Origin: Bacteroidales bacterium
GTDB lineage: Bacteria; Bacteroidota; Bacteroidia; Bacteroidales; UBA932
Assembly (NCBI GenBank): GCA_028690215.1
Contig: JAQVBQ010000015.1
Coordinates: 1 to 42,985, forward strand
DNA: 42,985 bases
Reading direction: 5' to 3'
Both the position numbers and the translations under genes were made by a program. Positions 36,338-42,687 of the stretch are shown here, in pieces (position 1 is the stretch's first letter; every line of letters begins with the position of its first letter). The notes below the pieces were generated by a model. It was not told the DNA's origin and ran no database searches. It worked only from the letters and a program-made list of their open reading frames with translations.

Positions 36338-37420
<1,083 letters not shown>

Positions 37421-37468: not shown

Positions 37469-38236
37469 ATGAGGAAGATTCTGATTACTAACGACGACGG
37501 AGTAAAATCAAAAGGCATATCACAACTGATAGAGATGATGAGACCTTTCGGAGAGATAACAGTTGTAGCACCTTTTGAAGCCCAATCCGGCATGTCGGCT
37601 GCATTGACAATAGGCAAACCACTAAGACTCACAGAATTAAGAAGTGATGACGGATTGAAAGTTTATGCATGTTCCGGTACACCTGCCGATTGCGTAAAGA
37701 TGGCAATGAATCAGATATTTAAAAATGTCCCGCCGGATATGCTCGTATCGGGTATCAATCATGGATCAAATGCGTCTGTAGCATCTTTATATTCAGGCAC
37801 TTTGGGTGCAGCAATAGAGGGAACAATATACGGAATTCCGTCAATAGGACTCTCACTCTGTTCTCATAGGCCCGATGCCGATTTCTCAGGAGTTTTGCAT
37901 TATGGGAAAATTATTATTGACAATTTTCTACAAAATCCAGTAAGTCCAAATGTCTATTTAAACGTGAATTTCCCCGACCTGAAACCTGACAAGATCAAGG
38001 GCATCAAATTCGCTCAACAAGGAAAGGGACAATGGATAAAAGAGTTTGAGCAGAGAGAGGATCCTTACGGATTCAAATACTACTGGATGACAGGTGAGTT
38101 TTTCAACCTTGAACCCAATAACGAAAAATCTGACAACAACATAATTGATAAGGGATATGTGAGCATTGTCGCACATAAGATTGACAATACTGATTACGAA
38201 GAGGTCAGAAGGCTTGAATCAATCTGGAAATTATGA
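37469..38236 (+). CDS. surE: 5'/3'-nucleotidase SurE
   Basis: Metal-dependent nucleoside monophosphatase of stationary-phase survival. 255 residues, full length. N-terminal metal motif ILITNDDGVKSKGI, then VVAPFEAQSGMSAALT, the Asn/Ser motif VSGINHGSNASVASLYSGT and GAAIEGTIYGIPSIGLSL. First gene of a six-gene run; its stop overlaps lpxB by 4 bases (ATGA). SurE next to LpxB is, to my knowledge, a recurrent arrangement in Bacteroidota. Confidence 0.97.
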   Translation: MRKILITNDDGVKSKGISQLIEMMRPFGEITVVAPFEAQSGMSAALTIGKPLRLTELRSDDGLKVYACSGTPADCVKMAMNQIFKNVPPDMLVSGINHGSNASVASLYSGTLGAAIEGTIYGIPSIGLSLCSHRPDADFSGVLHYGKIIIDNFLQNPVSPNVYLNVNFPDLKPDKIKGIKFAQQGKGQWIKEFEQREDPYGFKYYWMTGEFFNLEPNNEKSDNNIIDKGYVSIVAHKIDNTDYEEVRRLESIWKL

Positions 38237-39885
38237 AATATTACATCATTGCCGGTGAAGCATCCGGAGATCTTCACGGCTCAAACCTGATGAAGGCTCT
38301 CCTGGAAAAGGACCCCGGTGCAGATATCCGGTTCTGGGGCGGCGATCTGATGTCCTCCGCAGGGGGTACTCTGGTGAAGCACTACAAGGAGACGGCAGTG
38401 ATGGGAATAGTTGAGGTGATTTCAAAACTGGGGCAAATTGCCAAAAACCTTGATTTTTGCAAGAAAGACATTCTGGAATACAATCCAGATGTGGTAATAC
38501 TTATCGACTACCCGGGTTTTAATTTCAAAATTGCAAAATTTGCACGTAATAATTCAATAAAAGTCTTCTACTACATTCCGCCTACCGTTTGGGCGTGGAA
38601 AGAGTGGCGTATTAAGAGTCTAAAAAAATATGTCGACAGACTCTTCATCATATTTCCGTTTGAGGTTGATTTTTACAAAAATAGAGGTATGAAAGCCTTT
38701 TATTTCGGCAACCCTCTTTCAGAAAGCATCGCCAATCATGAATGCATGAAAGAGAGCGACGAGTCATTCCGCAAGAGATGCGATTTGAATGACAAGCCGA
38801 TAATAGCTCTTCTTGCGGGAAGCAGAACCAACGAGGTAAATATTCTCCTGCCCACATTCGTTCAGCTTGAGGAGAGATTCCCTGAATATCAGCTTGTAAT
38901 AGCAGGAGTAAATTCAATAGACAGAGAGTTATACGAAAAACATATCTCCGGTACAGACATAAGGCTACTGTTTGGAGAGACCTATCACCTGCTGCGTCAT
39001 GCAAAAGCAACAGCACTATGTTCCGGGACCGCAAGCCTTGAGGCTGCTTTGATCGGTACACCGCAAGTTGTCTGCTATAAAGTAAACATAATTACTGCTG
39101 TTATATTCAAAATCCTTATAAAGGTAAAATATGTAAGCCTTACCAACCTCATCTTCAACCAACAGGTTGTCAAAGAGCTACTGCAGTATGATTGCACAGT
39201 GGATAATATTTCAAGAGAACTTGAGCGGATTCTCACTGACAAAGAACAGGGCAAGATTCAAAAGCGGTATGACAAACTAAGAAAATTGCTCGGAGAGGCA
39301 CACGCATCCAGGGATATCGCAAAAGCAATGGTTGAAGAGCTTCACTCAATAATGGATGAAACCCGTTTTTTCAGATATTACAGATCCCCTATGGGCCTCT
39401 TCAAGTTGATAGCCGACTCTGAGGCTCTTGTTGAGATAAGATATATCAATGAAGAGGATGAGCAGACATTAAACTCAAAAGGGGCAGTAAAAAGTAACAC
39501 AATATTGGATGAAACCGCAAGTCAGCTCGATGAGTACTTTTCAGAAAAAAGAAAAGAGTTTGACTTGCCAATCAAGCTTTCAGGCACAGCGTTTCAGAAG
39601 AGAGTCTGGAGTGAGCTGTCAATGATACCTTACGGCAAGGTGAAAACATACGGTGAAATTGCATCTATTGTTGAGACAAAAGATGCGAGCAGGGCTGTCG
39701 GGAATGCATGCAGGATGAATCCTTTGCCAATAATAATTCCGTGTCACAGGGTGATCGGGGCTAACAATAAACTTACAGGGTTTAATATGGGAATTGACAA
39801 AAAGAGCTATTTGTTGGGGCTAGAAAAGGTGTTTGACAATTCTGACATAAATCTATTCAACGCAAACATTAATCAGGATAAATGA
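38233..39885 (+). CDS. lpxB: Lipid-A-disaccharide synthase fused to O6-alkylguanine-DNA alkyltransferase
   Basis: One 550-residue frame holding two complete enzymes. Residues 1-373 are LpxB, which condenses UDP-2,3-diacylglucosamine with lipid X in lipid A synthesis: IAGEASGDLHGSNLM, the LLAGSRTNEV motif, SGTASLEAAL and VSLTNLIFNQQVVKELLQ; it ends, as LpxB normally does, with ASRDIAKAMVEEL. Residues 374-535 are an MGMT/Ogt repair protein: N-terminal region from MDETRFFRYYRSPMGLF, then FQKRVWSELSMIPYGKVKTYGEIA, Arg487 finger, and IIPCHRVIG with acceptor Cys504. There is no linker. An ATG at 39352 starts the second domain, and an out-of-frame TAA overlaps it (TAATG), so a single-base change could have merged two genes. 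Sequencing error is the main alternative. Confidence 0.9.
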   Translation: MKYYIIAGEASGDLHGSNLMKALLEKDPGADIRFWGGDLMSSAGGTLVKHYKETAVMGIVEVISKLGQIAKNLDFCKKDILEYNPDVVILIDYPGFNFKIAKFARNNSIKVFYYIPPTVWAWKEWRIKSLKKYVDRLFIIFPFEVDFYKNRGMKAFYFGNPLSESIANHECMKESDESFRKRCDLNDKPIIALLAGSRTNEVNILLPTFVQLEERFPEYQLVIAGVNSIDRELYEKHISGTDIRLLFGETYHLLRHAKATALCSGTASLEAALIGTPQVVCYKVNIITAVIFKILIKVKYVSLTNLIFNQQVVKELLQYDCTVDNISRELERILTDKEQGKIQKRYDKLRKLLGEAHASRDIAKAMVEELHSIMDETRFFRYYRSPMGLFKLIADSEALVEIRYINEEDEQTLNSKGAVKSNTILDETASQLDEYFSEKRKEFDLPIKLSGTAFQKRVWSELSMIPYGKVKTYGEIASIVETKDASRAVGNACRMNPLPIIIPCHRVIGANNKLTGFNMGIDKKSYLLGLEKVFDNSDINLFNANINQDK

Positions 39886-39886
39886 T

Positions 39887-40711
39887 ATGAATATCAAAGC
39901 TTACAAGTATCAGGGTGCAGGCAATGACTTTGTCATTATTGACAATAGAGAAGGTGAAGTTTCACTCTCTCCTGAAAATATACGTCAATTGTGCCACCGC
40001 CGGTTTGGCATAGGTGCAGACGGGCTCATGCTTCTTGCAAAGAGTGAGAAATATGATTTTTCAATGAAGTTTTTCAACGCGGATGGAAGCGAAGGCTCAA
40101 TGTGCGGGAACGGAGGCAGATGTCTGGTAGCTTTTGCATATCACAGAGGCATAAAAAACTATCACTTTGAAGCTATTGACGGGGAGCACCATGCCACAGT
40201 GCTTGTTGGTACTCCTATAAAATGTATTGTTGAACTCGAGATGATCGATGTGAATGAAGTTAAGGAATACTCTCCAAAATCGTTCTTTCTGAATACCGGA
40301 TCACCTCATCTGGTCAATTTTGTAGAGAAGTTGAAGGATTACGACGTTTTGGAACAGGGAAAGTTCTGGAGACATCATCCTAGTTTTCCGGGAGGGACAA
40401 ATGTAAATTTTGTGCAAGGGAACTGGGGACGGAGTGCCATACCTGATGGTGTAGATCTCTATGTAAGAACATTTGAGCGGGGAGTTGAAGACGAGACATA
40501 TGCATGCGGCACAGGTGTGACAGCCTCTGCCATTGCATACCATAAGCTTTTTCAGAGGAACCTCTACCCATACGGTACTGTATCAACAAGAATACAGACT
40601 GTTGGTGATATCCTTGATGTCAAATTTGACTACAACGGGGCAGACAGCTACACAAATATCAAGCTGAAAGGTCCCGCTACTTTTGTTTTTTCCTGCGATG
40701 TTGAGATATAG
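39887..40711 (+). CDS. dapF: Diaminopimelate epimerase
   Basis: Converts LL- to meso-diaminopimelate for lysine and peptidoglycan. 274 residues. YQGAGNDFVIIDNR opens the protein; the two active cysteines are in GSMCGNGGRCLVAFA and ETYACGTGVTASAIA. The ATG follows the upstream stop by one base. Lies in an operon otherwise devoted to lipid A and coenzyme A synthesis. Confidence 0.98.
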   Translation: MNIKAYKYQGAGNDFVIIDNREGEVSLSPENIRQLCHRRFGIGADGLMLLAKSEKYDFSMKFFNADGSEGSMCGNGGRCLVAFAYHRGIKNYHFEAIDGEHHATVLVGTPIKCIVELEMIDVNEVKEYSPKSFFLNTGSPHLVNFVEKLKDYDVLEQGKFWRHHPSFPGGTNVNFVQGNWGRSAIPDGVDLYVRTFERGVEDETYACGTGVTASAIAYHKLFQRNLYPYGTVSTRIQTVGDILDVKFDYNGADSYTNIKLKGPATFVFSCDVEI

Positions 40712-40714
40712 AAT

Positions 40715-41191
40715 ATGAATACTGCGATTTTTCCCGGATCTTTTGACCCCTTCACACTGGGGCATATGGACATTCTGAATTCTGCATTGAAGCTTTTTGA
40801 CAAGGTCGTCATTGCCATCGGATACAATATGCAGAAAAAAGGGCTTTTCGATGTTGATGAGAGAATCTCTATAATAAAAGAGGCTCTCAAAGGGATGGAA
40901 AATGTAGAGGTTGTATCCTACACAGGACTTACAGTTACATTCTGCCGTCAACTTGGAATAAAGTTCATCATTCGTGGCCTCAGGACTACAACCGACTTTG
41001 AAATGGAGAGAGTCGTCGCACAGGCAAATTCAAGAATGGCCCCTGAGATCCTTACAGTATTCATCCCGTCCGGTCATGAATTCTCATTCATATCATCAAC
41101 AGTAGTCAGGGATGTCCTGATTAATGGCGGAGATGCCTCACTCCTTCTGCCTGAAGGAGTAGATATCTCAAGATATATTAAAGGTAAATGA
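40715..41191 (+). CDS. coaD: Phosphopantetheine adenylyltransferase
   Basis: Makes dephospho-CoA from 4'-phosphopantetheine and ATP. 158 residues, full length. Nucleotidyltransferase motif FPGSFDPFTLGHMDIL (TxGH), FIIRGLRTTTDFEMERVVAQAN and the ISSTVVRD motif near the C-terminus. Starts 3 bases after dapF; its stop overlaps the next gene by 4 bases (ATGA). Confidence 0.98.
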   Translation: MNTAIFPGSFDPFTLGHMDILNSALKLFDKVVIAIGYNMQKKGLFDVDERISIIKEALKGMENVEVVSYTGLTVTFCRQLGIKFIIRGLRTTTDFEMERVVAQANSRMAPEILTVFIPSGHEFSFISSTVVRDVLINGGDASLLLPEGVDISRYIKGK

Positions 41192-42687
41192 TCCGTAAAA
41201 GACTCTTAATACTGTTTCTTTTCATCGGAGTATCGTTCTCAGCACACTCTCAGCAGAGAGAGAAGCTGGAGAGATATATCGAGGAGTATCTATCTATGAC
41301 TCCACCCATTACCGACTCTCTGATAACTGCTTGTGACTATCTGATCGGCTTCAGCGAGGATACACTTATTAAGACCCACATAGCCGGTTATCTTTTTGAC
41401 AGATTTTACTCTTCAAAGGTTATGGGTATGGAGAGTGTTGCCATTCACATTGCCAAGAACTATTTCATAAACAAAAAGCTGGAATGGAAGGGAGAGGACG
41501 GAATGTTGCTCCTGCGACTCTTTGTAGAATTCAACGAACACTCTCTTATCGGTATGGATGCTCCGGAGCTGAATCTGGAGGATACCTCAGGCAATATGCA
41601 CTCTTTAAGGGACCAAAACTCCAAATTCACCGTTGTCTATTTCTTTGACACAGACTGTAGTCTCTGCAAAAAAGAGCTTCCCGGCCTGAAGGAGACAATA
41701 AAAAAATATCAGGGAGAAGATGTTGGAGTATATGCAGTCTACACACAATCCGATGTTAACCGTCTGAAACAATTCATACAGCAGGAGTTTTCACAGGATA
41801 ACGAAGGCTGGTTATTTACAATAGATACCGATTTTTCAAGCGGATTTCACAAGTTATACAACGTTCTGAAGACTCCCCAGATTTTTCTACTTGACAACAA
41901 TAAAAAGATAATCGGAAGGAATCTTGACCATAACACACTGAGTCAATTGCTGGAATCTGCCACAAAGAACGAAAGGCAGCTCTCAGAAAACATAAAAATT
42001 TTTCTGACCGACTATCTAAAAGTTGTAGATATCAGCGACACATCGGCTATGAGGGCGGCCATTGAACCTCTTTTCATCAAAAGCATCGAGGGCGGCCCGG
42101 ATCTCTATAGAATGATGTTCCTCCGTCTATTTGACATTTTACAGCTTTCAGATGACACCACTTATCAGAAATGTGCCCTCTTTGTAGCAGAAAACTATAT
42201 ATCAAACAGGTCTGACCTGTGGTGGGACAACTCAGTTCCCGGAGAGTATGTCCCAAAAATGGCTGAGAGAATAAAAAGTAACATGATTGGAGCTATTGCA
42301 AATGACTTCACCTTTTATACAAAAAAGATGAAACCGACACGTTTGCATGGGATAGACTCTAAGTACACAATTCTCTATTTTTACAGCCCTAAATGTGCAA
42401 TCTGCAAGCCTTTCGGAATGGATCTGAAGAGTATGTACAAATCTCTGAAAAAAAGAGGGGCAGAGGTCATAGCCGTAGATGTAGAAAGTGACTTTTACAC
42501 ATTTAAAAAAGAGTTAAAAAATTCGAAGGTTCCCTGGCAGAGATGTTTTGTCAAAGATGAGGACCGGCTGGATCTGTTTTATAAATTCAGGAAAGAGGAG
42601 GTCCCTATGATATACCTTCTGGACAGTGAGAGGAGAATAATAGCTAAGAAAATAAATACAACAACAATAAACACATTGGTAAAATGA
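41188..42687 (+). CDS. Secreted protein with two helical-thioredoxin units
   Basis: 499-residue exported protein with a type I signal peptide (1-21, cleavage likely near AHS-QQ). It is built as a tandem repeat: helical part (about 25-120) + TlpA-like thioredoxin fold (122-258) with DTDCSLCKKELP (Cys157/160) and cis-Pro loop KTPQIFLLD; then helical part (260-370) + second thioredoxin fold (372-499) with SPKCAICKPFG (Cys403/406) and EVPMIYLLD. The helical parts align with each other (AGYLFDRFYSSK versus LRLFDILQLSDD; IAKNYFINK versus VAENYISNR) and with the lipoprotein at 13256. Probably a periplasmic thiol-disulfide protein; partner unknown. Coupled to coaD and to the next gene by ATGA overlaps. 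Confidence 0.85.
   Translation: MIRKRLLILFLFIGVSFSAHSQQREKLERYIEEYLSMTPPITDSLITACDYLIGFSEDTLIKTHIAGYLFDRFYSSKVMGMESVAIHIAKNYFINKKLEWKGEDGMLLLRLFVEFNEHSLIGMDAPELNLEDTSGNMHSLRDQNSKFTVVYFFDTDCSLCKKELPGLKETIKKYQGEDVGVYAVYTQSDVNRLKQFIQQEFSQDNEGWLFTIDTDFSSGFHKLYNVLKTPQIFLLDNNKKIIGRNLDHNTLSQLLESATKNERQLSENIKIFLTDYLKVVDISDTSAMRAAIEPLFIKSIEGGPDLYRMMFLRLFDILQLSDDTTYQKCALFVAENYISNRSDLWWDNSVPGEYVPKMAERIKSNMIGAIANDFTFYTKKMKPTRLHGIDSKYTILYFYSPKCAICKPFGMDLKSMYKSLKKRGAEVIAVDVESDFYTFKKELKNSKVPWQRCFVKDEDRLDLFYKFRKEEVPMIYLLDSERRIIAKKINTTTINTLVK

Follow-up and report, generated by a model that had tools for sequence, protein, structure and literature searches.

An in-frame fusion of LpxB with an O6-alkylguanine-DNA alkyltransferase, conserved in one family of Bacteroidales

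Two natural fusions of an O6-alkylguanine-DNA alkyltransferase (AGT, hereafter MGMT) are described in passages of a review on these enzymes from 2023, namely AGT-EndoV of Ferroplasma acidarmanus and AGT-2 of C. elegans, the latter with a histone-like domain (PMC10779285). The word LpxB is absent from the main text of that review (PMC10779285). A fusion of IspH with a helicase has been reported in Bacteroidales bacterium CF, according to a passage of the report on it (PMC4746011). In an open-licence PMC full-text search, no fusion of LpxB with an alkyltransferase was described in the titles and abstract openings of the papers listed. Here we analyze such a fusion, found on the forward strand of a Bacteroidales contig. 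The window, that is, the whole stretch of 42,985 nucleotides that was analyzed, is an entire contig of a 153-contig genome bin, which is 90.1% complete and 6.58% contaminated.

Positions 38233-39885 (+) form a single frame of 550 codons with an ATG start and 0 internal stops. The features of the frame are given below. Counts out of 34 refer to the fused sequences whose residues were examined, 22 from the genus of the window (g1) and 12 from another genus of the same family (g45).

38233..39885, + strand: LpxB-MGMT fusion ORF, 550 amino acids plus stop; same frame in 22/25 genus genomes
38242..39312, + strand: lipid-A-disaccharide synthase domain (PF02684), residues 4-360; Pfam 306.1 bits, cut-off 22.6
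38818..38826, + strand: GSR motif of LpxB, residues 196-198; 34/34 fused sequences, invariant in alignment A1
39022..39042, + strand: SGTASLE motif of LpxB, residues 264-270; SGTASLE in 22/34 and SGTATLE in 12/34 fused sequences
39313..39372, + strand: junction, residues 361-380, where the LpxB end runs straight into the alkyltransferase N-terminal domain; stop-free in 22 genus loci
39328..39330, + strand: Met366, in-frame ATG, candidate internal start; 33/34 fused sequences, the only well-conserved candidate
39352..39354, + strand: Met374, internal start put forward by the sequence-only reading of this DNA; ATG in 2/34
39373..39579, + strand: alkyltransferase N-terminal domain, Methyltransf_1N (PF02870), residues 381-449; Pfam 39.5 bits, cut-off 21
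39589..39831, + strand: alkyltransferase catalytic/DNA-binding domain, DNA_binding_1 (PF01035), residues 453-533; Pfam 109.7 bits, cut-off 27
39691..39693, + strand: Arg487 (SRAVG); Arg in 34/34 fused sequences
39742..39744, + strand: Cys504 in PCHR (PCHRV); Cys in 34/34 fused sequences

The sequence-only reading had described LpxB and an alkyltransferase within one 550-residue frame, and the ORF, Pfam and NCBIfam analyses bear this out. The fusion protein scored 262 bits against the lpxB equivalog TIGR00215 (cut-off 190) and 111 bits against the ogt model TIGR00589 (cut-off 46). In sequence searches, residues 5-359 matched the PDB chains 5w8n and 5w8s, named lipid-A-disaccharide synthase and presumably the E. 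coli LpxB of family GT19, and residues 380-542 matched the alkyltransferase chain 4bhc at 112 bits. Cys504 in PCHRV and Arg487 in SRAVG stand where that reading had placed them; GSR lies at 196-198 and SGTASLE at 264-270. Its description of the two halves as joined without a linker is a fair one, the roughly 20 residues between the Pfam domains holding the natural end of LpxB.

The assignment of the N-terminal half to LpxB rests on a score above the curated equivalog cut-off, on the retention of GSR, SGTA(S/T)LE and Asp92 (D92, the Asp of the IDYPGF motif, which we take to be catalytic in LpxB), and on the presence of lpxC and lpxK elsewhere in the bin. The C-terminal half has both alkyltransferase domains above their cut-offs together with Cys504, which we take to be the acceptor cysteine, and Arg487, which presumably occupies the position of the base-flipping 'arginine finger'. 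Two related identities were considered and rejected. In alkyltransferase-like (ATL) proteins the acceptor Cys is replaced, and Cys504 is intact. Ada carries an N-terminal Ada metal-binding domain and an AraC-type DNA-binding domain, and the Pfam scan of the window protein gave LpxB and the two MGMT domains only. The AlphaFold model of the window protein, computed with 12 relatives, was good for the LpxB half. In the MGMT half the pLDDT was below 50 at residues 384-455, 465-474 and 479-550, where the model is unusable.

The spread of the fusion was analyzed with a profile of 11 fused sequences (alignment A2), which covers the C-terminal half of LpxB and MGMT in full. Among 398 genomes of the family, 35 matched the profile across the junction at 464-581 bits, and the best match below them, at 242 bits, was the bare LpxB of one member of the window's genus, G005. 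The LpxB-MGMT architecture is thus present in related Bacteroidales. Within the genus the fusion was found in 22 of 25 genomes, or 22 of the 23 in which lpxB was found, each time as one frame of 546-578 amino acids with the LpxB SGTASLE and the MGMT PCHR. As to the three remaining genomes, the LpxB of G005 stands alone and its MGMT is separate, and neither G003 (82% complete) nor G014 (76% complete) gave any match at all to the fusion protein. The sister genus g12 has the fusion in its one sampled genome (1/1, G035), with LpxB split over two contig ends. In g45 it was found in 12 of 13 genomes, one of the 12 (G147) being cut by a contig end; the remaining genome, G167, gave no match. In another of the 12, G176 (L114, 2896-4448), the N-terminal part of LpxB is out of frame with the rest of the fusion, owing either to a sequencing error or to decay.

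In a 296-genome sample of the phylum searched with the A2 profile, the window's own genome alone matched across the junction (561 bits); the next match, at 201 bits, was LpxB alone, and the other matches listed (at least about 147 bits) covered one domain, some of them overrunning its end across stop codons. When the whole protein was run against 393 genomes of the order, the three sampled members of the genus scored at least 706 bits, and the best other among the matches listed reached 418 bits with LpxB only. In the samples searched, the fusion does not extend beyond one family. We also observed the fusion at about 91% identity on SAAM01000075.1 (L034), a contig labelled as belonging to a Clostridia MAG, which is probably mis-binned or mislabelled.

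It was necessary to consider that the fusion is an assembly error, a frameshift artefact or a chimeric contig. The bin of the window (G000) contains two closely similar rpoC genes, on contigs C149 and C152, and is therefore probably a mixture of two closely related strains or species; this mixture and the contamination of 6.58% would favour an artefact. The same architecture, however, is repeated in 34 other genomes of the family in all. These include the closed chromosome CP006772.1 ('Bacteroidales bacterium CF, complete genome'), where a 91% identical fusion lies on a single contig, and synonymous changes dominate between the sequences. The independent genomes, the single-contig complete one among them, refute the artefact reading, to which we attach practically no weight. 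A stop between the two domains was also looked for in the relatives. The proposal of an uninterrupted chain held in the 22 genus loci, where no such stop occurs, but not in G005, where LpxB lacks the repair domain. Counts of TAA in the relatives' loci were rejected as evidence of inter-domain stops: since 22/22 genus loci are single frames with both motifs, the counted TAA stops lie outside the fusion frames.

The conservation of the two halves was then compared. Cys504, Arg487 and GSR are present in all 34 fused sequences, as is either SGTASLE or SGTATLE. D92 is kept in 32 of the 34; the two exceptions lack an intact sequence at this position (G147 is cut and G176 is out of frame). In alignment A1, GSR, the second motif and D92 are invariant except for the S/T and the S of the second motif. 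The dN/dS values were calculated by the Nei-Gojobori method for 13 close pairs, of which those with no changes or with saturation were uncomputable. In LpxB they were 0.03-0.11 (12 pairs), in the N-terminal domain of MGMT 0.05-0.19 (10 pairs), in its catalytic domain 0.00-0.11 (10 pairs) and in the junction of 20 residues 0.00-0.35 (10 pairs). Both halves are under purifying selection. The dN/dS values and the kept active-site residues suggest that the MGMT half is not a dead passenger domain. Together with the occurrence in 35/398 family genomes, the purifying selection on both halves and the retained active-site residues argue for the bifunctional protein that the sequence-only reading had offered as one possibility.

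The surroundings of the frame in the window are as follows.

36338..37396, - strand: divergent upstream neighbour, putatively gapA from its sequence features; beside the fusion in 8/8 wide-flank genus loci
37469..38236, + strand: surE, overlapping the fusion start by ATGA (38233-38236)
39887..40711, + strand: dapF, beginning one base past the fusion stop
40715..41191, + strand: coaD, by NCBIfam
41188-42687: thioredoxin-like gene, the last of the run, 499 amino acids with thioredoxin-like regions in the NCBIfam scan

The order gapA (reverse)-surE-fusion-dapF-coaD-thioredoxin-like was the same around the fusion in all eight genus loci with wide flanks (L122, L132-L138). The best reading of this arrangement is that the fusion sits in a tightly packed surE-lpxB-dapF-coaD operon.

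The tight packing bears on a further possibility, namely that the fusion was frozen by accident and is neutral to selection, both halves being needed and their joining having brought nothing. Close packing in an operon eases the loss of a stop, and the fusion has been lost in G005, both of which agree with an accident. The conservation of both halves is by itself no argument against neutrality of the joint. The joint itself, however, persists in g45 and, within the genus, in 22 of the 23 genomes with a recovered lpxB, and we consider a neutral accident very unlikely.

The history of the fusion was examined with trees of RpoC (30 rows), LpxB (76 rows) and MGMT. In the RpoC tree, g12 is joined to g1 (98/97), and the place of G005 is within g1, together with G016 (100/99). 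In the LpxB tree, G005 stands among the fused sequences (98/93). From these two positions it follows that G005 lost the MGMT domain secondarily. In G005, dapF directly follows lpxB (loci L025/L121), and a separate MGMT of another type is found on contig C19, which is assigned to the G005 bin (L045). Since G005 lost the repair domain, its bin holding a separate alkyltransferase, LpxB does not need the fusion. The MGMT tree unites g1 and g12 in a clade (100/99). The LpxB tree, against RpoC and MGMT, places the g12 fragment nearer g4 and g10 (82/87).

The relation of the g45 fusion to that of g1 and g12 is less straightforward. The RpoC tree places g45 away from g1/g12, with other genera (99/98), and the g45 LpxBs are 38-42% identical to that of the window, the pieces of G176 aside. 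Behind the g45 fusion lies a frame of 375-383 amino acids in 12/12 loci; a scan of one of these loci identified it there as dnaN. A single clade of g1, g12 and g45 was weakly rejected by RpoC (p-AU 0.040). A single origin of the g1/g12 and g45 fusions was rejected neither by LpxB (p-AU 0.387) nor by MGMT (p-AU 0.169), and an LpxB tree constrained to the RpoC grouping was not rejected (p-AU 0.402). Two independent fusions were also considered; RpoC speaks weakly for them (p-AU 0.040), the LpxB and MGMT trees are compatible with a single origin, and there may have been one fusion event or two. Between the g1/g12 and g45 groups the junction can be aligned without a gap, for which reason we lean towards one origin of the fusion, followed by losses or transfer. 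No MGMT match at E values up to 1 was found beside lpxB in 82 unfused lpxB loci, some of which share a genome and many of which extend only about 1.5 kb beyond the gene, so that no adjacent but unfused intermediate stage was seen.

A second, shorter product from the fusion frame is possible. The sequence-only reading had suggested internal initiation at Met374. As a conserved feature this start was not upheld, because an ATG occurs at that codon in only 2/34 sequences, namely the window and its 91% relative; in 10/34, all from the window's genus, an ATG lies at most one codon away. Met366 is the better candidate. Its ATG, kept in 33/34 sequences, would give an MGMT of 185 residues, which is a normal size, and the residue is Ile in G005, from which the MGMT domain was lost. 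In synonymous conservation, residues 361-380 stand somewhat high, at the 86th-87th percentile of the gene, the gene peak lying at 400-420. It could therefore be supposed that two products are made, a full-length LpxB-MGMT and a free MGMT arising by internal initiation at Met366 or nearby, or by proteolysis, the translation of ogt being partly embedded in lpxB. Residue 366, however, lies near the end of LpxB, and in unfused LpxBs (G005 excluded) it is Met in 5/12 and Ile in 7/12. The windows over 346-370, the place expected for a ribosome-binding signal, show ordinary synonymous conservation (8th-58th percentile), and Met374 is not conserved. The window contains no exact match to the Bacteroides promoter consensus, for which 1.5 matches would be expected by chance. 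On balance we regard two products as rather unlikely.

Other fusions of MGMT were observed in the same family. In genus g6, MGMT is C-terminal to a GNAT acetyltransferase (L117, 1103-2404 (+); L142, 709-1986 (+)), and in 12 further g6 genomes it lies in frames of 378-435 amino acids. In genus g37 it stands behind UbiD (L118, 2076-4466 (-); L141, 1891-4221 (-); L189, 3-2156 (+)), and in genus g4 behind an HhH-GPD glycosylase (L120, 1364-2524 (+); L184, 235-1464 (+)). A scan of the other long MGMT frames, L180, L185, L186, L187 and L188, found no partner domain. The HhH-GPD glycosylase is a repair enzyme; the GNAT and UbiD partners are not obviously related to repair.

These partners bear on whether repair and lipid A synthesis are functionally coupled. 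LpxB is a peripheral membrane enzyme, so that the fusion attaches the repair domain to a protein able to sit at the membrane. Coupling could take either of two forms: alkylation of Cys504 would destabilize the whole chain, so that LpxB falls and envelope synthesis slows under alkylation stress, or LpxB would bring the repair domain to the membrane. The physical link has been conserved for long. In the studied cases described in passages of one paper, alkylated alkyltransferases are destabilized and degraded (PMC7216122), and repair could therefore cost the cell LpxB. The same passages, however, describe an exception, an archaeal alkyltransferase that is soluble and relatively stable after the reaction (PMC7216122). 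The link was lost in G005, so coupling is not essential. Moreover, the occurrence of MGMT behind such different enzymes in related genera points to a frequent, ready fusion partner in this family rather than to a specific LpxB-repair pathway. We therefore consider functional coupling improbable. A still bolder form of the idea treats the alkyltransferase as a damage gauge: alkylation of Cys504 would lead to removal of the chain, lipid A synthesis would go down and envelope growth would be slowed, and, given the LpxB, UbiD and GNAT partners, such a switch from damage to metabolism might be recurrent. We offer this as speculation and give it little credence.

The reading that we favour, and hold with reasonable confidence on the basis of sequence comparisons, is that of an old bifunctional fusion in the surE-lpxB-dapF-coaD operon, through which a repair protein would be steadily co-expressed with an essential enzyme. 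Most likely, a standalone ogt (MGMT) gene in frame behind lpxB lost the intervening stop and start. Every LpxB chain would then end C-terminally in a complete alkyltransferase domain, as a single unprocessed product. At the inner membrane, the LpxB part would form the disaccharide of lipid A by its usual chemistry, and the MGMT part would transfer the alkyl group of O6-alkylguanine to Cys504, once. PF02684 and PF01035 each have one match in the 90.1% complete bin of the window, both in the fusion. With the fusion protein as query, 21 of the 22 fused genus genomes gave one match in all; the exception, G011, has a second, partial MGMT. Because no other alkyltransferase was found in the window's genome and 21/22 genomes show single matches, O6-alkylguanine repair in the cell probably falls to the fused domain. 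A protein that works only once is needed in number, and a tie to an essential enzyme would give it a constant supply. The benefit, if any, would most likely be this steady supply of a stoichiometric repair protein, not a direct biochemical coupling.

The locus presents a conserved natural fusion of two proteins that are not known to be functionally connected; in the samples searched, three genera carry it. Since the fusion occurs in a completely sequenced genome, it is directly testable. Provided that both activities are real, an essential envelope enzyme bears a single-use repair domain on each of its copies, and it may be asked whether the use of repair costs the cell LpxB. The locus also calls for caution, because inference from gene fusions ('Rosetta stone') could wrongly link lipid A with DNA repair; the meaning of the fusion may be no more than convenient co-expression.

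Compared with known systems, the window protein shares with LpxB (5w8n, 5w8s) the whole domain and its motifs, and lpxC and lpxK in the same genome, but differs by a C-terminal repair domain of about 170 residues. With Ogt/MGMT (AGT, e.g. 4bhc) it has both domains, the PCHR cysteine and the RAVG arginine in common; Ogt/MGMT, however, is a free protein of about 18 kDa, whereas the N-terminus of the window's MGMT is joined to LpxB. Ada of E. coli has the C-terminal alkyltransferase domain in common, and the window protein is without the Ada metal-binding or AraC-type domain. According to the review passages, AGT-EndoV and AGT-2 keep the C-terminal AGT part alone (PMC10779285), while the fusion described here keeps both AGT domains. 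The AGT is joined to an endonuclease in the one and to a histone-like domain in the other (PMC10779285), whereas the partner in the window is an envelope glycosyltransferase. The IspH-helicase fusion of Bacteroidales bacterium CF, as presented in the passage of its report, is likewise an unexpected fusion of enzymes, although of different genes (PMC4746011).
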